DNA of 64,000 bases, taken from an uncultured Pseudomonadota bacterium (GTDB lineage: Bacteria > Pseudomonadota > Gammaproteobacteria > CAJXQU01). Each line of letters begins with the position of its first letter. The first letter of the stretch is position 1. Both the position numbers and the translations under genes were made by a program. The notes below the pieces were generated by a model that was not told where the DNA came from, did no database searches, and worked only from the letters and a program-made list of their open reading frames with translations. The stretch is from assembly GCA_913058255.1 (NCBI GenBank), contig CAJXQU010000001.1:434001-498000 (forward strand), read 5' to 3'. Shown here piece by piece: positions 8,099-18,957 of the stretch.

Positions 8099-11011
8099 AT
8101 GAAAAAACTGTTAATTGCTATTGGTGTGATCATCGTTCTGTTTGTCGGAGCACTGATTGCTATCCCAATGTTTATTGATCCTAATGATCATAAAGACACC
8201 ATTGTTGAACAGGTGAAAAAGCAAACGGGACGAGACCTGACGATTACGGGGGATCTGAAAATGTCTAAATTCCCTTCGTTGGGTGTAGACATTGGGGCTA
8301 TTGAGCTGAGTAATGCACCGGGTTTTGGTGATGAGCCCATGCTGAAAAGTGGCCGCGCCAGTGTCAGCGTTAAAATTGTACCTATCTTAAAAGCATTGCC
8401 CGGTTTCATTAGCGACAAGGAAGCAGCGATGGCCAATATCATGAATGATGTTGAGATCAGTACGTTGGTTCTAAAAGATGTCTATCTAAACCTTGGTGTT
8501 GATAAATCAGGCAAAACTAACCTTGATGACTTAATGGCCGCAGGCGAAACCAAAGAAGAAAAGAAAGATGATGCTGGAGCGGTTAATCTCGCAGCTTTAG
8601 CCATAGGTGGAGTTGACTTACAGAATGTAAACCTAGTTTGGGATGACCAAAGCCAAGGTAAAAAATATGCAGTTCAAAATTTAAACCTAAAAACGGGCAA
8701 GTTGCAGCTAAACAAACCAATTGATCTAGAATTGAGCCTAGATGTCGATGCTGCTGCGGAAGGTATTGCAGGAAATATCGCGTTGGATGGAACGGTTGAG
8801 TATGACCTAGAAGGTAAAAAATACAGCGTTACGCCGATCAACTTCTTAGCGAAACTGAGTGGAACGGGTGTACCTGGTGGTGCGGCTGATATCAAACTGA
8901 AAGCTTCGTCAGCACACGCTGATCTCACGGCGGGAACAGCGAGTATTGCAGGGCTCGATCTGGATGCCTTAGGCACAAAGATTTCAGGCGATATTGACGC
9001 TTCAAATATTTTTGAAAAAATCCCATTAGCGAATGGGCACATCAACATTAACGCACAATCGATTCCTGATTTGTTGAAAGCGTTAGGGCAAGATCCGAAT
9101 GCGGTTCCTTTGACCAAGCTAACAGCCGATGCGACGTTCAAAAGCAATAAAGACAGCATGACATTTGAGAAGTTAGTCGCGAATGCAACGTTAGAAGGAG
9201 GTATGTTCACCAAGCCAGAAAACGTTAATGTCGATATTGCTGGTGATGTGAATATTGCGAATGAAACCTTGAACCTGACTAAATTATCGGTTGAAGGTTT
9301 GGGGGCGACGGTTAAGGGGAGTATTCAGGCAAATAATATTCTACAACCGATCCCATTGTTAAGTGGGCAGATCAATATTAATGCTGCTGATGTTCCCTCT
9401 ATCATGGCTGCGCTTGGGCAAGATGCTTCTGCAATGCCCGTAAAAAGTCTAATTGCAGATACAACACTAACGAGCACAGCGGACAGCATGAGGGTCGAAA
9501 ACTTGACTGCGAAAGCAGTGTTATCAGGGGATCAAATTCCAAATAGTCCTGTTGAAGTGAACTTGAATACGACTGCGGATGTAAATCTGGCCAAAGAAAC
9601 ATTGAATGTACAAAGCTTTACTATCGAAGGTATGGGGTTAAACATCCAAGGTGCGGCTTCGGGTGCAGACATTGTTAAGAATCCTAACTTGAATGGTTCT
9701 TTGAAAATAGCGCCATTCAATCTTCGTCAAATGGCTAAACAGATGAATATTGAATTGCCAGTGACGGCAGACCCTAAGGTGTTATCGAATTTTGGGTTTA
9801 ACTCAAAATTCAATGCAACTAAAAACTCAGTCAGTTTGAAAGGTATGGGCATAACGTTGGATGATACGAATATTACGGGCGATTTCTCGCTGGTAAATTT
9901 CAGCAATCCTGCACCAAGATTTACGATCAATATTGATGCGATCAATGCCGATCGATACATGGCTCCAGCATCAGAAGGTCAAGTAACACCAGCATCTAGC
10001 GACGCAGCAGCAGGAGAATCCGCTCCTTTACCGATGGATGCACTAAGAAAGCTTAATGCTAAAGGCAGTTTGAATATTGGTAGTTTGATTATTTCAAATG
10101 CAAAATTGAAAAACGTTAAGCTTGGTTTGGATGCAAAAGGTGGAAAAATCAACCTGACACCACTTAAAGCAAACCTATATAAAGGTAGTTTTAACGGTGG
10201 TGTGAACCTCAATGCGACGGGCAGCCAGCCTGCGATTAATGTTTCGAGCGCTTTGAGTGGTGTGCAGATTGCGCCTTTGTTGACTGATCTGACCGGTGAC
10301 TCAAAAATTGATGGAACTTTGGTTGGAAATATCAAGATCAATGCTGTTGGTGCTGATGTTAACGCAATTAAGAAAACGTTAAACGGTACCACTGATCTGA
10401 AGTTTACGAACGGTGCATTACTCGGTGTCAACATCGCAAAAATTATTCGTGAAGCAAAAGCTAAGTTAACAGGCCAAGCGGTTGCTACAACAAATGAAGT
10501 TGAGAAAACGGACTTTAGTGAGTTGAGTGCAAGTAGTACGATTAAGAATGGTTTGGTTTCAAATAAAGATTTCTTGATGAAGTCTCCATTCCTACGTATT
10601 GCTGGAGATGGAACGGCACATTTGGTTAGCGAGAAAGTTGATTACAATGTGAAGACTTCGATTGTGGGATCAGGTAAAGGTCAAGGTGGTGAAGGTTTGA
10701 GTGATCTCAGTGGTTTGACTATTCCGATCAAGGTCTCAGGTACTTTTTCTAATATGAGTTACAAGCCTGATCTTGCTGGTTTAGCACAAGCCAGAGCAAA
10801 GGAAGAGTTGGAGAAACAAAAAGACAAGCTTAAAGAAAAAGCAGTAGAAAAACTTGAAAAAGTACTTCCTAGCAAGCTCAAAGGTCTAGATGGGTTGTTA
10901 AAAGGTAGTGAAGAAAAAGCCGCATCTGGTTCTACGAATGCTGCACCGAAAGAAGAAAAGAAACCCGAAGAAGAGGTTAAAGATAAGTTGAAAAATTTGC
11001 TTAAATTCTAA
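8099..11011 (+). CDS. AsmA family protein
   Basis: A 970-residue protein with an N-terminal membrane anchor (about residues 3-25), then the AsmA opening (MFIDPNDHKDTIVEQVKKQT, then GRDLTITGDL). Long beta-rich repeats follow; segments near residues 295-330, 400-440 and 480-525 resemble one another (IPLANGHININAQSIPDLLK and IPLLSGQININAADVPSIMA). The end is a Lys/Glu-rich tail. AsmA-like proteins span the periplasm and are linked to phospholipid transport and outer-membrane assembly. Its start is 35 nt after argH and a strong terminator follows. The internal repetition fits the beta-groove architecture of bridge-like lipid transport proteins. Confidence 0.88.
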   Translation: MKKLLIAIGVIIVLFVGALIAIPMFIDPNDHKDTIVEQVKKQTGRDLTITGDLKMSKFPSLGVDIGAIELSNAPGFGDEPMLKSGRASVSVKIVPILKALPGFISDKEAAMANIMNDVEISTLVLKDVYLNLGVDKSGKTNLDDLMAAGETKEEKKDDAGAVNLAALAIGGVDLQNVNLVWDDQSQGKKYAVQNLNLKTGKLQLNKPIDLELSLDVDAAAEGIAGNIALDGTVEYDLEGKKYSVTPINFLAKLSGTGVPGGAADIKLKASSAHADLTAGTASIAGLDLDALGTKISGDIDASNIFEKIPLANGHININAQSIPDLLKALGQDPNAVPLTKLTADATFKSNKDSMTFEKLVANATLEGGMFTKPENVNVDIAGDVNIANETLNLTKLSVEGLGATVKGSIQANNILQPIPLLSGQININAADVPSIMAALGQDASAMPVKSLIADTTLTSTADSMRVENLTAKAVLSGDQIPNSPVEVNLNTTADVNLAKETLNVQSFTIEGMGLNIQGAASGADIVKNPNLNGSLKIAPFNLRQMAKQMNIELPVTADPKVLSNFGFNSKFNATKNSVSLKGMGITLDDTNITGDFSLVNFSNPAPRFTINIDAINADRYMAPASEGQVTPASSDAAAGESAPLPMDALRKLNAKGSLNIGSLIISNAKLKNVKLGLDAKGGKINLTPLKANLYKGSFNGGVNLNATGSQPAINVSSALSGVQIAPLLTDLTGDSKIDGTLVGNIKINAVGADVNAIKKTLNGTTDLKFTNGALLGVNIAKIIREAKAKLTGQAVATTNEVEKTDFSELSASSTIKNGLVSNKDFLMKSPFLRIAGDGTAHLVSEKVDYNVKTSIVGSGKGQGGEGLSDLSGLTIPIKVSGTFSNMSYKPDLAGLAQARAKEELEKQKDKLKEKAVEKLEKVLPSKLKGLDGLLKGSEEKAASGSTNAAPKEEKKPEEEVKDKLKNLLKF

Positions 11012-11032
11012 GTTAGCTTACCTTTGCTTACG

Positions 11033-11069
11033 AAAGGCTTTCTTATTGAAAAATAAGAAAGCCTTTTTT
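11033..11069 (+). terminator. Strong Rho-independent terminator after the AsmA gene
   Basis: A perfect 15-bp stem (11033-11047 with 11052-11066), a GAAA tetraloop and a T run. It ends the argH-asmA transcript. Confidence 0.92.
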
Positions 11070-11122
11070 ATTTTCATAATTAATATAGCTTTTTGGCGAT
11101 AAATTCTTAAATAGATTTAATC

Positions 11123-12166
11123 ATGAGCGCTTTCAGCAACAAACTTCTTAATTGGTTTCAACAACATGGTCGTAAAGATCTACCATGGCAGCAACAGCCA
11201 ACCGCTTATCGTGTCTGGATATCAGAGATCATGCTACAACAGACCCAAGTCAAAACGGTCATTCCATACTACGAAAAATTCATGCAAAGCTTCCCTAATG
11301 TGCAAACGCTCGCGGAGACATCAACCGATGAAGTTTTACACCACTGGTCAGGATTAGGTTATTACGCTCGGGCGAGAAACTTACATAAAACAGCACAGCT
11401 GATCTGTGAACAATACTCAGGAGAGTTCCCGCGAGAATTAGATGAAATGCAAGCGTTGCCCGGCATAGGTCGATCAACGGCCGGAGCGATCCTGTCGCTG
11501 GCCTTTAAGCAACGTCAAACCATACTCGACGGTAATGTAAAACGTGTATTAACGCGATATGAAGCCATTGAAGGTTGGCCCGGTAAAGTAGGCGTGCAAA
11601 AAATGCTCTGGAAGGTCGCTGAGCGACATACGCCGACAGATGATATCGAGTGTTACACGCAAGCAATAATGGATTTAGGCGCGACCCTATGCACGCGTAG
11701 TAAGCCCGATTGTGATACCTGCCCAGTACGACTTGAATGTAAGGCAAACCTAACTGGCAGGCAGAAGGAGTTTCCATATTCCAAGCCGAAGAAAGTATCA
11801 CCGACCAAGAAGAAGATTTTTCTTATATTAAGAAATGAAAAGAACGAGATACTGTTAGAAAAAAGGCCGCCAACAGGTATATGGGGAGGATTATGGAGCC
11901 TGCCGGAATGTGAACATGAAGACGATCCAGAAATGGTCTGTCAACAACGATACGGCTGGAATATAAGCGAACAAGAAATGCTGGACATAGTAAGGCACAC
12001 CTTCAGCCACTTTCATTTAGAAATAACCCCATTAGTAGCCAAAGTCGGTGTACAAAAAGCAGTGATCATGGAATCCGAGCAAACACTCTGGTATAACACT
12101 GACCAAGTACATCATATTGGATTAGCGGCACCGGTAGCCGGACTGTTAAAAACATTGCAGGAATAG
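11123..12166 (+). CDS. mutY: A/G-specific adenine glycosylase MutY
   Basis: Removes adenine mispaired with 8-oxoguanine. The 347 residues contain the HhH-GPD core ([20 protein letters not shown] and [14 protein letters not shown], with catalytic Asp in VNGN-type loop [13 protein letters not shown]), the iron-sulfur cysteines [17 protein letters not shown], and a C-terminal NUDIX-like domain ([19 protein letters not shown]) that reads the oxidised guanine. It is followed 4 nt later by yggX, a common pairing. Confidence 0.97.
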
Positions 12167-12170
12167 CGTT

Positions 12171-12440
12171 ATGGCTCACACAGTAAATTGCATCAAACTC
12201 GGAAAAGAAGCAGAAGGTTTAAAGCGAATTCCTTACCCAGGAGATCTGGGCAAAAAAATCTATGAAAATGTCTCACAAGAAGCATGGCAAATGTGGTTAG
12301 GCCATCAAACTATGTTGATCAATGAAAACCGACTGACACCTATCGAACCGAAAGCAAGGGAGTTTTTAAAAGTCGAGTTGGAAAAGTTTTTCTTCGGAGA
12401 AGGTTCAGAAATGCCTGAAGGATACGTCCCTGAAAAATAA
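12171..12440 (+). CDS. yggX: Fe(II)-trafficking protein YggX
   Basis: An 89-residue protein matching the YggX family throughout: [38 protein letters not shown] and a C-terminal GYVPEK. YggX protects iron-sulfur proteins from oxidative damage. It lies 4 nt after mutY, itself an iron-sulfur enzyme, consistent with a shared oxidative-damage role. Confidence 0.95.
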
Positions 12441-12512
12441 ATCAACAAAAAGGCTTGACTCAAACCGTCGCAAACGGTCTAATACCGCGCTCACATTGAT
12501 TCAACACAAAAT

Positions 12513-12591
<79 letters not shown>

Positions 12592-12612
12592 GAAACAAAG
12601 ACTTACATTACA

Positions 12613-13632
12613 TCAAACAATCTTCATTGGTGTCTTGTGCCAGTTTTGTGTCTCTGCAATATTTTCCGCATACTTCACTAAATGACCAGCTGTTAGATGT
12701 GCGTAACGTTTTACCATTTCTGCACTACTCCAACCACCAAGTTCCTGTAACACCGATAAAGGCGTTCCTTCTTGTGCATGCCAAGACGCCCATGTATGAC
12801 GCCAATCATGCCAACGAAAGTCTTCTATACCTGCTCGTTCTAAAGCTTTATACCAAGCACGCGTACTTGCACGCTTTATAGGTTTGCCTTGATAGGTAAA
12901 CACATTAATTTTGTGCTTACCTAATTGTGCACGTAAAACTTCTAAGGCTTCCGTGTTTAAAGGAACACCAATAGCATTGCCATTCTTAGATTCATCAGGA
13001 TGGATCCAAGCTAAGCGTTTACTCATATCAATCTGACTCCATTTCAAGCTAACAACATTATTCATGCGTAGGCCTGTAGTGAAAGCAAACCGAGCCATAA
13101 AGGCCAAGTGTTCAGGTAGTTCTTTTACAAGTCGTTCAGCTTCTGTGCGAGTCAGGAAACGTACACGTTTCTTAGGCTCTTTTCTCATCCTTATTTTGGG
13201 TGCTTTATCTATCCAATCCCATTCAAGCCAAGCAGCTCTGAGAATTGAACGGATCACCGCAAGATAACGATTCACATTAGCTGGACTACTTCCATCAGCT
13301 TCCTTAGCTTCTGCGACAGTTTCAATTAAGTCTCTATCGATTTCATCTAAGTATTGCCCCCGAAGGAAAGGATCAATCCAACGCAATCGAGCGATGTCTT
13401 GTTTGTGTGTGCGTTTATGACTGTGTTCATGTAGCCACTTGACGACACCATCTTCCCACTTTCTACGAGGGCGTTCTTTTAACTGTTGGTTCCGCCAAGA
13501 CTCTAGCTTAAGAGTGTCGTGATACTCCTCAGCTAGGGTTTTGTTTTTAGTCCCAGTAGACTTGCGTATTCGTTGTCCATTGGGAGCTGTGAAACGGATC
13601 CACCAGATTTCTCCGCGTTTATAGAGTGCCAT
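12613..13632 (-). CDS. Tyrosine integrase of the tRNA-Phe element
   Basis: A 339-residue tyrosine recombinase that would integrate and excise the element at tRNA-Phe. An Arm-type N-terminus (MALYKRGEIWWIRFTAPNGQ) is followed by a SAM-like core-binding domain (about 60-150) and the catalytic domain. The catalytic set is visible: Arg189 (TTGLRMNNV), Lys216 (SKNG), His275 and Arg278 (HDWRHTW), Trp301 (GGWSS) and Tyr310 (VKRYAHL). AAGGAG lies 8 nt before the ATG. The gene ends 21 nt from the direct repeat, the usual position for a tRNA-targeting integrase. The preceding HTH gene overlaps its 5' end by 100 nt in another frame. Confidence 0.95.
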   Translation of the reverse strand: MALYKRGEIWWIRFTAPNGQRIRKSTGTKNKTLAEEYHDTLKLESWRNQQLKERPRRKWEDGVVKWLHEHSHKRTHKQDIARLRWIDPFLRGQYLDEIDRDLIETVAEAKEADGSSPANVNRYLAVIRSILRAAWLEWDWIDKAPKIRMRKEPKKRVRFLTRTEAERLVKELPEHLAFMARFAFTTGLRMNNVVSLKWSQIDMSKRLAWIHPDESKNGNAIGVPLNTEALEVLRAQLGKHKINVFTYQGKPIKRASTRAWYKALERAGIEDFRWHDWRHTWASWHAQEGTPLSVLQELGGWSSAEMVKRYAHLTAGHLVKYAENIAETQNWHKTPMKIV

Positions 13633-13853
13633 AAGTTTTTCTCCTTACAGTCACTTTGCGGCGCTTGCCCATAGTTAGAATAGAGTGAACGGAGATATTC
13701 CACAAGATCGCATTCCAAAAACACCCAACACTTTCCGGGTTTAGCTCCTTTGATCCGACCAGTTTTTGCATGTCGTCTAAGAACCCCAGCGGACATGTGG
13801 AGGAAGGCCGCGGCCTCTTCAAGATTGAGTGTATTGTATGATTCATTCGCCAT
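13533..13853 (-). CDS. Small HTH protein, possible excisionase or regulator
   Basis: A 106-residue protein. The first 60 residues form a MerR/AlpA-like helix-turn-helix (LNLEEAAAFLHMSAGVLRRH, then AKTGRIKGAKPGKCWVF, then a wing and helix). Such proteins in small integrative elements act as excisionases or regulators of the integrase. AGGAAG lies 6-7 nt before the ATG. The start overlaps the end of the Rep gene by 11 nt and its 3' third overlaps the integrase start by 100 nt, an unusually tight packing that implies coupled expression. The overlapping tail (after about residue 75) has no recognisable domain. Confidence 0.75.
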   Translation of the reverse strand: MANESYNTLNLEEAAAFLHMSAGVLRRHAKTGRIKGAKPGKCWVFLECDLVEYLRSLYSNYGQAPQSDCKEKNLWHSINAEKSGGSVSQLPMDNEYASLLGLKTKP

Positions 13854-15168
13854 CCTTCATCTTCCTATAAACGTCAGGATCGGTTCCTAATGTATCCTTA
13901 ACCATCTGTTGAGATTTTTCTTCTATGTCAGGAAAAGGCAGGTTGCACTTCTTCGCTTTAATCGCCGCTTTTTCATTAACGTATCGTGTAAAGTCAGCAC
14001 CTGATAACAAACTATTTTTATCATGATACTTCTTAGTGTCACGAAAATATTCTTGTAAGTTTTCTTCCGAGTGGCGGACATTATTAAGCACAAGGTAACT
14101 GGTGTAACCACCGATTCCATTGACGTACATATACTGCTCTGTCGGAGGATTAGAAGAACGAACCGGAATAGATAAGGCTTGGTCTGAACCATTCCATTCA
14201 ATATCGGCGACGGAAGCCCAGACAGGATGTAGTGGCCAACGTGATTGCGTACTATCGGTCTTACTAGGAATGGTCAACTTCAACCATGACAAGGTGGAAT
14301 AAGTCCAAAGAGAACCGAGACGCTCTAATAATTGTGGAACGGTTTCGATACCTCGTTCTTTTAGGAAAGGCCGCATGTATTGAAACTCAGAACGCCAGAC
14401 GGTGTCTTCAGACTCCCAGCCTTTTTCATGCCAGATATCCTTCATGTATTCCTTACCTGACTTCTCTAGTTCTTTGGTTTTGTCATAGAGTCGAAAGGTA
14501 ATATCCCCACCACGACCAATCGAATACCCCGTCGTTTCTCGTGACATGGTGTGATTACCAATGTAGATAGCACGCGAGACCCATTGAGCAGGCGTCAGTG
14601 CATCAAGTGGCATTGTTGAAACATAGTCGAGATATAAGTCTGCACGACTCACTTGGGTTTCACCTTCGATATCGCCAAAGTGCTCAATGATAGGTAGTAA
14701 GTCTCGAACCACCCATTCCACACCATGTTTTAATAGCCAAGTACTTCTAATTTGTACTTGAGCCAATGGCATTTGCTTACCTTTAGTCCCAGAGAGTTTA
14801 ATCAGGTAGGCATTGTTTTGGAGTACAAAAGGAAAGATGCCTGCACCAGCTGCTCGAACTTCAAACTGATGACCTCGAATATTATAAATAGCATAAGCCT
14901 GAGTCAGTAAGTCATCTGACTTAGCTAGGTCTTTTAGTGCTGATAATTCTTTGTGTTTAAAGAAAGCTATTTGCCCTTGATAAGAAAGATATAGGGTATC
15001 GATACCTTGGATTAAAGGAAGTATGGATGATGGTGTAATGCTAGTAGCGGGTACTGTGTTACAGGGTGACGTACCCGAATAAGAACCACCAAGGCAGTTC
15101 GGAGCACTCTGCGAGTGCTTTTCCGAACCTGCTTCATTGGTGTTTGATTTGTTATCTTCATGTTGCAT
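13843..15168 (-). CDS. Replication initiation factor (Rep_trans/RstA-like)
   Basis: About 441 residues from the preferred start. The core resembles replication initiators of small plasmids and filamentous phages such as RstA: SRADLYLDYVS, GRGGDITFRLYDKTKELEKS, then VWRSEFQYMRPFLKERGIET and LWTYSTLSWLKL. Such proteins nick or open an origin to start rolling-circle replication; which residue would act here is not clear. The frame is open to an ATG at 15201, but that ATG abuts a terminator T run and has no ribosome site. The ATG at 15168 follows AGAGGATTACTCCT and is preferred. The presence of Rep suggests the excised element can replicate. Confidence 0.7.
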   Translation of the reverse strand: MQHEDNKSNTNEAGSEKHSQSAPNCLGGSYSGTSPCNTVPATSITPSSILPLIQGIDTLYLSYQGQIAFFKHKELSALKDLAKSDDLLTQAYAIYNIRGHQFEVRAAGAGIFPFVLQNNAYLIKLSGTKGKQMPLAQVQIRSTWLLKHGVEWVVRDLLPIIEHFGDIEGETQVSRADLYLDYVSTMPLDALTPAQWVSRAIYIGNHTMSRETTGYSIGRGGDITFRLYDKTKELEKSGKEYMKDIWHEKGWESEDTVWRSEFQYMRPFLKERGIETVPQLLERLGSLWTYSTLSWLKLTIPSKTDSTQSRWPLHPVWASVADIEWNGSDQALSIPVRSSNPPTEQYMYVNGIGGYTSYLVLNNVRHSEENLQEYFRDTKKYHDKNSLLSGADFTRYVNEKAAIKAKKCNLPFPDIEEKSQQMVKDTLGTDPDVYRKMKDGE

Positions 15169-15201
15169 AGGAGTAATCCTCTTTGATTGAGGACGGCTCA
15201 T

Positions 15202-15268: not shown

Positions 15269-16009
15269 TTAGATTTTCATGTCGTACCTTTTCTTCTTCC
15301 AGCGCTGAATGTACCTGAAGAGACTTTTCGGGGCACCGGCTGTATCTGGATATACTTTCAGTTGGACGCAGAACAGATCATATGCAGAAGCTTCAGAGAG
15401 GGTATCAACGGTAAAATCTTCATACATATAAGCCAGTAAAAACTGAAGTTGGGAGTGTTGATCAAACTTGGTAGTCTTCCCTGTTAGAGCCCTAGAAAGA
15501 CGAGAAAAGAAAACTTCATCAGTAGTTTGTTCTGCAATAATGATCCTTTGAGCCAATGGTGGGTATGTAATTAGGCTCTTATCTAGACGAATAGCCTTCA
15601 TAAATTTATCATCATCTGATTGTGCAAGTGAGATTAAAACGTTTAGGCGTTGGCCAAAAAGCCTTAGGCAATCAACTTGTTTATTGATTGTATTATTGAG
15701 CATGGACAGAGTCGCTATGTTAGGTTCTTGATTGTCCATAAATGTTTCAAACTCTTCATATGAGTCAAAGTCTTTGTCCTCGAACTGATAGAGTTTTGAC
15801 ATAAGATTTATGACTGCATCGTGAGTAAGCTGATAAGTATCATGCCAGTCAGAGCCATCACAAACGATATTTTTGAGTGACTCTTCGGAGAGTTTTTTAT
15901 TTCGAGTATCGATATCGGCTCTTGTCTGAAGTTGCTCTTGAAAGTCTGACAGAACAATCCTAAGCTCCTCTACGTTGATTCGTCCAAGTTTCTCATTAGA
16001 AATGGTCAT
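15269..16009 (-). CDS. Unknown helical protein, partner of DUF2235 hydrolase
   Basis: A 246-residue soluble protein of no recognised family. It is predicted mostly helical by eye, with no signal peptide, membrane helix or metal motif. It has an acidic central region (FEDKDFDSYEEFETFMDNQE) and a basic end (RYIQRWKKKRYDMKI). Its ATG overlaps the TGA of the hydrolase gene (ATGA at 16006-16009) and it has no strong ribosome site of its own. Translation should therefore be coupled, at a fixed ratio to the hydrolase. The terminator 40 nt after its stop ends the unit. An inhibitor, adaptor or immunity role for the hydrolase is a reasonable guess from context only. Confidence 0.8.
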   Translation of the reverse strand: MTISNEKLGRINVEELRIVLSDFQEQLQTRADIDTRNKKLSEESLKNIVCDGSDWHDTYQLTHDAVINLMSKLYQFEDKDFDSYEEFETFMDNQEPNIATLSMLNNTINKQVDCLRLFGQRLNVLISLAQSDDDKFMKAIRLDKSLITYPPLAQRIIIAEQTTDEVFFSRLSRALTGKTTKFDQHSQLQFLLAYMYEDFTVDTLSEASAYDLFCVQLKVYPDTAGAPKSLFRYIQRWKKKRYDMKI

Positions 16010-17454
16010 GATTTCTGATAAAAGTTTTCTAGCTTGGGATCATATTTCAACGACTCTGGCCTATAAAGAGTAGATCGACCATGCTTAATTATAGAAGGGA
16101 GAACCAGCCGCTCATGGACTGTTGGGTGATACGGGGCACCGCTAGCATCGTACCTGAACTTTTCTGGCCATGTGTAACGAAGGAAGTTTGGAAACCAGTT
16201 AGGATATACATCTCGAAGGCTTTCTACCTCACAATGTTGCATAGCATCAGCTGAGGGGAAAAGGTTCAACATGCTCTCATTGACAATAAGAGGGTGGGGG
16301 AGGCTTCGTGCTTCTGAGAGCATCCATTCTAGAGTGATATCGGATAGTCTTGATTCATTCTCAGGATAGCTACCTCCAATATCAGAGTGGTTTCCTGCAA
16401 ACCATAACTGAACTAGCCCTGTGGGTTCCCCCTCAGATCTTGAATAGTCTGAACCTTTAAAACCCCACTGGACTCTTGAAAAGTCTTTCCGGGTTTCATC
16501 AATAGCTAAAGCATGCCGAGCATACCTCACACGAGTATCAAGTCCACGGTCGTAGTTTTTCATTTTCCACTTAGCAAAATGAAACCTAAAACTATTCTTT
16601 TCCGGATAGTTACTTATGATTTTGAAAGAAGACTTGAGTGCAACCCGAAACATTGCTGCAATAATCATTAGGCTGACTAAAACAACAGTACTCCAAAAGT
16701 CCCACTCAAAGAATGAAGCAAGAATTTTTGCTAATGAAGTAGTAATTACAACTAGAGTAATAATAGCCATTATGGCCATTCCAAGCCTACGTAAACCTCT
16801 TGCACCAAGAGAAGCGACTGTATCGAAGACTCCTATAAAGTAAGGTGATGCATTAGCATGATCAAACTCTGGTGTTTGTTCATTATTAATTCCTGAGTGA
16901 TACTTTTCTCGAAACCGCCTTGCTTTTTCTTCTCGCTCTTCTTCAAATATCTGTCTATCCCTTCCGGCACCATGTTCATAGACTTTTCGGACAGCTTCAT
17001 CAGCAATTTTTCTAGTCTCGCTAGTGAACAGAGGCAATACTTCTCCCTGACCATTTTCGGTGGGTACACCACATAAACTTAGAACTCTAGCAACGCATCG
17101 TACCGTATAAGCCCCTCGACTAAATCCAAATAAGAAGATACGGTCACCGGGCTCATAGTGGTTAAGGATAGCTTCATAACAATCGGTAATATTTGTCGTA
17201 ATTCCTCGTCCAGTGATGGAACCTAGGTATTTATCAAAAGACTTTTTTATTTTTATATATATATTGCCTGTTGAAGTCTCATCTGTGCCAAGACCTGCGT
17301 CATAAAATGCAATTTGTTCCTTAGGATCTATGATGTTATCCGGTGCGACACGTGAAGCTCTAAAAAGTTTGTAGATATTGCTTAAGCGTTGATCGGGGCG
17401 AAGCCCTCCTGCCTGACCAGTGCCATCTGAAAAAATTAATATGTTCTTACTCAT
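16006..17454 (-). CDS. DUF2235 alpha/beta-hydrolase with inserted membrane helices
   Basis: A 482-residue protein of the DUF2235 (T6SS Tle1-like) hydrolase family. The N-terminus NILIFSDGTGQ is the family opening. Ser112 lies in the nucleophile elbow GFSRGAYT, Asp211 in VFDTVASLG and His356 in FAGNHSDIGGSYPE, so the catalytic triad looks complete. Between Asp211 and His356 are two hydrophobic helices (about 225-248 and 253-271), which would hold the enzyme at the membrane. Related Tle1 enzymes are phospholipases A. No VgrG, PAAR or secretion signal is nearby, so it probably acts inside its own cell. A 15-nt palindrome lies 37 nt upstream of the ATG. Confidence 0.88.
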   Translation of the reverse strand: MSKNILIFSDGTGQAGGLRPDQRLSNIYKLFRASRVAPDNIIDPKEQIAFYDAGLGTDETSTGNIYIKIKKSFDKYLGSITGRGITTNITDCYEAILNHYEPGDRIFLFGFSRGAYTVRCVARVLSLCGVPTENGQGEVLPLFTSETRKIADEAVRKVYEHGAGRDRQIFEEEREEKARRFREKYHSGINNEQTPEFDHANASPYFIGVFDTVASLGARGLRRLGMAIMAIITLVVITTSLAKILASFFEWDFWSTVVLVSLMIIAAMFRVALKSSFKIISNYPEKNSFRFHFAKWKMKNYDRGLDTRVRYARHALAIDETRKDFSRVQWGFKGSDYSRSEGEPTGLVQLWFAGNHSDIGGSYPENESRLSDITLEWMLSEARSLPHPLIVNESMLNLFPSADAMQHCEVESLRDVYPNWFPNFLRYTWPEKFRYDASGAPYHPTVHERLVLPSIIKHGRSTLYRPESLKYDPKLENFYQKS

Positions 17455-17523: not shown

Positions 17524-18585
17524 TTAAGAATCTTCCCTGTCGACAACTTCATCTTTATTTTTGTTCTCTAGTTTTTTAGTGTTAGCCATAGGGGTGGTAA
17601 GATCGAGTGTTTTGACGACGGAGGGAATATTTTTCTTGTTCATTCTGTCTATAACAAGATCCCAGAGTTTCTGCCTCGTCTTTAAGTCGAGCAGACCATC
17701 GAAGCCGGGGCCCTTATTCCCAAAAATCATTGAGTAGCTGATGGCTGCGTATATAACCCATGAGTCTAAGTGAATATTAATATTGCCGGAGAAAAGAGTA
17801 TTCCAGACATCTCCTGGTGAGTGAAAAGCTGCTTGTGTAGTTATAGTCAAACTTCCGTTGAGGGCATATTGATTAAACCGAACATCAAAATTCTCTTCGT
17901 TCAGTTCGTTTTCGAACTCTTTCGAAATTACTTCAATTTCATCTAAAAAACTAAGAAGAGATACAACGGCATAATTTTTAACGTTATCTTCAGTGTTTAT
18001 TCGTGCAGAGAGGTGAAGATTATTATTCTTAATAAATAAAGGATACAAAGAATGGTAAACAGCTGCTGAATGGTCATCAATATTGAATAATGTTTGATGT
18101 GCTCGAAGACTAGTGCGGAGACCGTATGGTAAAACTGTTCGTTTTATACTCGGCCCCCAGACAACCTGTCTTCGGAGATGGTATTTGAGATGAGTATTTC
18201 TACGAGAACTTTGTTCTGTTTTAACTTTTAATAGCTTTTTCGATAGTCTAGGAAGACCTGTCACTCGGCCAAATCTGTAGGAGTAATTTCCAACGGTTAG
18301 AACCCAATCACCAACTTGTATTTCGGATAAAAAAGCTTTGACTTGTTTTATGTGTGTAGTTGTACGCCCTTTATCATGACCCTGAGACTCATGTAGTTTA
18401 CTGAGTTTGTGCTCAATGATGTCGTAGTTTGGTTCAAAAGGTTGCTCTATAGACTCATCAAGGTTTAGACCATCAAGGTGGCCTAGTGCAATAACTTCAT
18501 TATCTATGAAGTGTTCGAAATATTCACCTCCATCTGCTCTTATAACCCAGTATCTTCTACTCTCTGGTACAGTATAAACCTCCAT
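17524..18585 (-). CDS. Protein with EVE/Mrr-N-like N-terminus, unknown function
   Basis: About 353 residues from the ATG at 18585, which has AGGGAG five nt upstream; a GTG two codons earlier is also possible. The N-terminal 120 residues resemble the EVE/Mrr-N-type modules found before restriction and other defence effectors: YWVIRADGGEYFEHFIDNEV, IALGHLDG, then VGDWVLTVGNYSYRFGRVTG. In those families the module is thought to recognise modified DNA or nucleotides. The rest (about 190-340) is not recognised; it has one moderately hydrophobic stretch (SWVIYAAISYSMIFG) and an acidic/basic tail. It is the first gene of the cargo and has its own promoter-like sequence. Confidence 0.72.
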   Translation of the reverse strand: MEVYTVPESRRYWVIRADGGEYFEHFIDNEVIALGHLDGLNLDESIEQPFEPNYDIIEHKLSKLHESQGHDKGRTTTHIKQVKAFLSEIQVGDWVLTVGNYSYRFGRVTGLPRLSKKLLKVKTEQSSRRNTHLKYHLRRQVVWGPSIKRTVLPYGLRTSLRAHQTLFNIDDHSAAVYHSLYPLFIKNNNLHLSARINTEDNVKNYAVVSLLSFLDEIEVISKEFENELNEENFDVRFNQYALNGSLTITTQAAFHSPGDVWNTLFSGNINIHLDSWVIYAAISYSMIFGNKGPGFDGLLDLKTRQKLWDLVIDRMNKKNIPSVVKTLDLTTPMANTKKLENKNKDEVVDREDS

Positions 18586-18628
18586 TTCCACTCCCTTTAG
18601 TGTGACTTGATGTTCAGTTCAGCTTTTA

Positions 18629-18909: not shown

Positions 18910-18957
18910 CTGAAAATCCTTGTGTCGGCAGTTCGATTCTGCCCCGAGCCACCATTT
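18910..18957 (+). repeat. attR: 48-bp direct repeat of tRNA-Phe
   Basis: Identical to 12544-12591: the tRNA-Phe 3' half without its 5' half. It marks the far end of the element and is not a functional tRNA. The remaining bases to 19038 hold no gene; a short open frame crossing the repeat (18844-19056) is not credible. Confidence 0.95.

Follow-up and report, generated by a model that had tools for sequence, protein, structure and literature searches.

A 6.4-kb integrative element in tRNA-Phe that carries a Tle1-like hydrolase as a plausible phage-defence gene

Background

Tle1 leaves the cell through the type VI secretion system (T6SS), comes with VgrG, an adaptor and an immunity protein, and has amphipathic domains that anchor it to membranes (PMC13133936). 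The hydrolase described here, HYD, shares with the Tle1 family (PF09994; P. aeruginosa Tle1, structure 4o5p) the alpha/beta hydrolase domain, the Ser-Asp-His triad and a match of its family profile to 4o5p (4.8e-6), but differs from Tle1 in its hydrophobic segments between Asp and His, in having no T6SS context and in having relatives with defence neighbours. A second likeness is to CBASS operons with a downstream DUF2235 gene (type I with CD-NTase and 2TM; type III with NucC), where relatives of HYD follow directly in the same orientation (L127, L136, L138, L139 and L144), whereas the element in the window, the whole stretch of 64,000 nucleotides that was analysed, has no CD-NTase and its genome no SMODS match. 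Our literature search found no paper naming both CBASS and DUF2235, which is not proof of novelty.

The element that carries HYD resembles the PICMI phage satellites (PMC10803314), which are likewise very small integrative elements in which an integrase and an AlpA/HTH_17 protein are accompanied by a replication gene, by one small conserved gene of unknown function and by a slot where the defence cargo varies; the integrase (PF00589) and AlpA-type gene (PF12728) are both in the window element. It differs from PICMI in being integrated in the 3' end of tRNA-Phe and not at fis, and in having a rolling-circle-type Rep with no Pfam match to the DUF3987/DUF5906 primase that PICMI has. No evidence of phage packaging came to light for the window element. 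The tRNA-integrated defence islands of E. coli (PMC12458937) share with it the tRNA target, direct repeats, a prophage-like integrase, an AlpA-like excisionase, a rolling-circle initiator and defence cargo, but those islands have 16-20-nt repeats and large cargo, whereas the present family is about 6.4 kb with repeats mostly of about 45-59 nt and is set apart from them by a common core of two genes, P246 and REP.

Results and discussion

The element and its family

The locus is an integrative element of 6,366 bp bounded by a 48-bp exact repeat of the tRNA-Phe 3' half, and it consists of six genes on one strand. The preliminary description had seen two of these, HYD and the 246-aa ORF, as a pair; both ORFs are real, but they sit in this larger element together with a third gene, S02, that had been overlooked. 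The features are as follows.

12513..12588, plus strand: tRNA-Phe (GAA), the integration target (ARAGORN)
12544..12591: direct repeat copy 1, tRNA 3' half, int-end boundary of the element
12613..13632, minus strand: int, tyrosine integrase (PF00589, 3.5e-34)
13533..13853, minus strand: xis, HTH_17 excisionase-like protein (PF12728, 1.4e-9; phrog_2907 excisionase, 6.8e-12)
13843..15201, minus strand: REP, rolling-circle replication initiator-like protein
15269..16009, minus strand: P246, all-helical core protein of 246 aa, encoded upstream of REP in the family
16006..17454, minus strand: HYD, DUF2235/Tle1-like alpha/beta hydrolase of 482 aa (PF09994), cargo
17524..18591, minus strand: S02, PDC-S02-like protein with a candidate role in defence, the other cargo gene
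18910..18957: direct repeat copy 2, far end of the element

When REP was searched for in 369 genomes of the class, relatives were found in 11. A scan of species genomes gave 189 relatives, from which 80 loci were retained, and one locus from viral contigs brought the set to 81. Repeats of at least 35 bp bound 39 elements, namely the window element and 38 related ones, and these measure 4.5 to 11.4 kb with a median of 6.4 kb. An adjoining tRNA (Arg, Asn, Phe, Lys, Met, His, Leu or Thr) was called in 36 of the 39, and wherever one was called the repeats of the related elements sit at its 3' end. An empty-site comparison with two genomes of the same genus is weak because the right flank was not found; mutY-tRNA-Phe is kept in one of them, and the element is absent from both within the DNA examined. 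Promoter and terminator sites in the scan were no more numerous than in shuffled sequences. The int and xis genes overlap out of frame by 100 nt (13533-13632), and overlaps of 88-100 nt are seen again in L030, L031 and L033.

REP has no Pfam match above the cut-off. Its structure model (pLDDT 84.9) matched 4cij in Foldseek (3.7e-10, probability 1.00, TM-score 0.34 by query and 0.55 by target) and 4cwe (4.0e-8), both of which are rolling-circle initiators, and Tyr239 within RLYDKT, which is invariant across 41 REP sequences, is the candidate catalytic tyrosine. From the modelled fold, REP is most likely a rolling-circle-type initiator.

P246 is a core gene of the element and is accompanied by changing cargo. 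An HMM built by iteration found a P246-family gene immediately upstream of REP in 50 loci out of 69 that had sufficient sequence on that side, counting the window, with a median gap of 88 bp. The P246 model is all-helical (pLDDT 87.1). As the preliminary description had held, the protein is of no recognised kind: it has no match in Pfam, PADLOC or PHROGs, none in the plasmid, phage and viral collections, and no credible match by sequence or fold in the PDB, and a BFVD fold search gave none either. The best reading is that P246 serves replication or mobility, a role suggested by its place beside REP. In nine loci (L040, L044, L046, L059, L062, L067, L076, L097 and L108) a second family of about 250 aa ('LSLWEIAHYW...') replaces P246 upstream of REP, for example at L044 8021-8815, L046 7966-8805, L062 7986-8756, L067 7911-8648, L076 8049-8795 and L097 7944-8681.

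No cargo gene other than HYD and S02 is recognisable in the window element, and S02 lies 69 bp upstream of HYD on the same strand. S02 matches the PADLOC family PDC-S02 (1.6e-14) and phrog_10226 (1.3e-30), and it has no match in the PDB. Neither HYD nor S02 was found by tblastn in the related element loci (0/81 each). Among 91 scanned cargo proteins of the elements were six reverse transcriptases with matches to retron families, three C5 methylases, two N4/N6 methylases, RloB, Vsr, two PRTase-CE and AAA proteins; defence genes are thus frequent in the cargo slot, though many cargo genes are without annotation.

The hydrolase and its relatives

HYD matches PF09994 (T6SS_Tle1-like_cat) at 3.7e-67 and 227.1 bits against a curated cut-off of 27. 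The parts of the gene that matter here, all on the minus strand, are these.

17119..17121: Ser112 codon, in the GFSRG motif
16822..16824: Asp211 codon
16636..16797: hydrophobic insert at about residues 220-273 with predicted membrane segments (Kyte-Doolittle maxima of 1.8-2.2 in 19-residue stretches)
16387..16389: His356 codon

All three triad residues are invariant in an alignment of HYD with nine relatives, and the GxSxG motif is present, so the complete triad that had been proposed from the sequence holds. A hydrophobic insert is there as well between Asp and His, where membrane helices had been proposed. A hydrophobic Asp-His stretch occurs in nine of the nine aligned relatives, with one to three 19-residue segments per protein above the hydropathy threshold, some of them overlapping, which makes it a trait of the family and not of the window's HYD in particular. 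These membrane segments are predicted from hydropathy. The single HYD sequence found no match in the PDB and a family profile was needed, which also matched a second Tle1 structure, 9j3f (0.0057). HYD has no obvious export signal.

Full-length relatives of HYD (about 37-50% identity) are found mainly on alphaproteobacterial plasmids; they are rare in genomes at strict cut-offs (5/398 and 4/385) and none was found in phages. Several of them have CBASS genes next to them. At L127 HYD is the last gene in a run of CD-NTase, HORMA, TRIP13 and NucC; the order CD-NTase, 2TM/SLATT, HYD with gaps of 3-30 nt is seen at L136, L138, L139 and L144; and at L142 HYD is beside a CBASS with ThiF/JAB genes. Other relatives are beside Hachiman (L008, L137), 15 nt from an OLD-like ATPase (L129), with ThsB-like TIR proteins (L134, L140), near GajA of Gabija (L141) or after an E1/JAB-like protein (L005), and five loci (L007, L010, L013, L128 and L143) have no recognised defence gene nearby. 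As a control, other regions of three of the same plasmids, about 147 kb in all, had no such defence system in the annotation, a comparison that is small and based on annotation text. Nor are all of these contexts independent, because many of the related plasmids belong to Rhodobacterales and have a backbone in common. HYD relatives thus recurrently adjoin anti-phage systems, which is suggestive and not a formal test, and HYD is a plausible phage-defence gene. At L133 a protein of 2069 aa is encoded upstream of the HYD relative (8943-15152); its N-terminal stretch resembles, by eye, a restriction-type nuclease domain, and it has no PADLOC match.

Proposed role and alternatives

Taking the element and the relatives of HYD together, we infer, with a probability of about 0.6, that REP copies this tRNA-Phe element, of which P246 is a core gene, and that HYD, which fills the cargo slot together with S02, is a membrane-held anti-phage lipid hydrolase. 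The integrase and excisionase would move the element and REP, as a rolling-circle-type initiator, would copy it, while P246, encoded just upstream, would most likely assist or regulate REP or excision. HYD is probably defence cargo whose target is the membrane of its own cell, either by itself or jointly with S02, the gene upstream: the helices inserted between Asp211 and His356 would hold it in the cell's own inner membrane, where, when activated, it would cut phospholipids and damage the membrane as an anti-phage effector. The trigger may be intrinsic, or S02 or other defence systems of the same cell may supply it. P. aeruginosa Tle1 has its toxic effect only if it is sent to the periplasm (PMC13133936), so the compartment matters for HYD too, and HYD, in which no export signal is obvious, need not harm its own cell from the cytoplasm.

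The preliminary description had suggested P246 as a stoichiometric inhibitor, adaptor or sensor of HYD. In its favor are the same orientation of the two genes and the 4-nt overlap, which is as had been described, the two ORFs sharing ATGA at 16006-16009. A reading of P246 as an inhibitor, antitoxin or adaptor specific to HYD is nevertheless very improbable, and we reject it as a dedicated antitoxin or immunity partner because co-occurrence fails in both directions: 49 of the 50 element loci with P246 have no hydrolase, HYD being absent from the related loci, and the P246 HMM had no match in 25 HYD loci (0/25), whereas the positive control set gave 54. The P246 family is found with many other cargoes, and junctions of P246 with unrelated cargo are tight or overlapping at L061, L098 and L089, the -4 overlap itself recurring at L061 with an unrelated 462-aa cargo protein that ends in hydrophobic segments. 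Most likely, therefore, the overlap arose where cargo was inserted against a core gene and does not mark a fixed partnership. That HYD could be delivered into competitors as a T6SS effector like Tle1 is suggested by its membership in PF09994 and by the profile matches to Tle1 structures, but this is the least probable of the readings and hardly to be expected here. The VipB sheath gene (PF05943, the one T6SS family searched) is absent from the host genome, which is 96% complete, making T6SS delivery unlikely; VgrG and PAAR genes are missing from the element, as had been noted earlier, and so are adaptor and immunity genes. Association of HYD mainly with T6SS genes, which would have spoken against the earlier proposal, was looked for, and no annotated HYD neighborhood names a T6SS gene, VgrG, PAAR, adaptor and immunity genes included. 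HYD is, moreover, carried as cargo alongside a defence candidate. A role for HYD as a CBASS effector in the host genome was also rejected, there being no SMODS match; a CD-NTase is in the same operon in HYD relatives and not in the window element.

HYD and S02 could be the two halves of one defence system, S02 as the sensor of infection and HYD as the executor, as they are adjacent, in the same direction and the sole recognisable cargo genes, and S02 matches a candidate defence family of PADLOC. This is unlikely, however, since phage relatives of S02 have no adjoining hydrolase and an S02 relative was found in none of the 25 HYD loci (0/25). HYD could also modify lipids or serve the maintenance of mobile DNA, its defence neighborhood reflecting shared hotspots, since presence in a defence hotspot does not make a gene a defence gene. 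Several HYD relatives have no defence neighbor, and on some Rhodobacterales plasmids HYD is fixed at one backbone site while the defence neighbors vary (L008, L137, L139 and L142). Against this are the operon-like junctions of a few nucleotides between HYD and CBASS genes in more than one lineage and the clean local plasmid control. We regard a non-defence role as somewhat unlikely, and prefer HYD as an anti-phage effector.

A wider proposal is that membrane-anchored, non-secreted Tle1-like hydrolases may be a plug-in effector or accessory of several unrelated anti-phage systems (CBASS types I-III, Hachiman and OLD/TIR) that also travels without them on minimal rolling-circle-type elements; we put it forward only tentatively. 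If it is true, a lipase domain of T6SS type has changed from a weapon for export into an antiviral effector inside the cell, following CBASS and other systems. The element family is itself compact and widespread, carries defence genes and has an uncharacterised protein in its core, so new defence systems may be sought in its cargo slot. Four retron-type reverse transcriptase look-alikes were picked out by eye at L040 7040-8074, L059 2411-3361, L077 5602-6648 and L089 6937-7875. Relatives of S02 occur in Gram-positive temperate and satellite phages between the repressor and the integrase, like an accessory exclusion gene.
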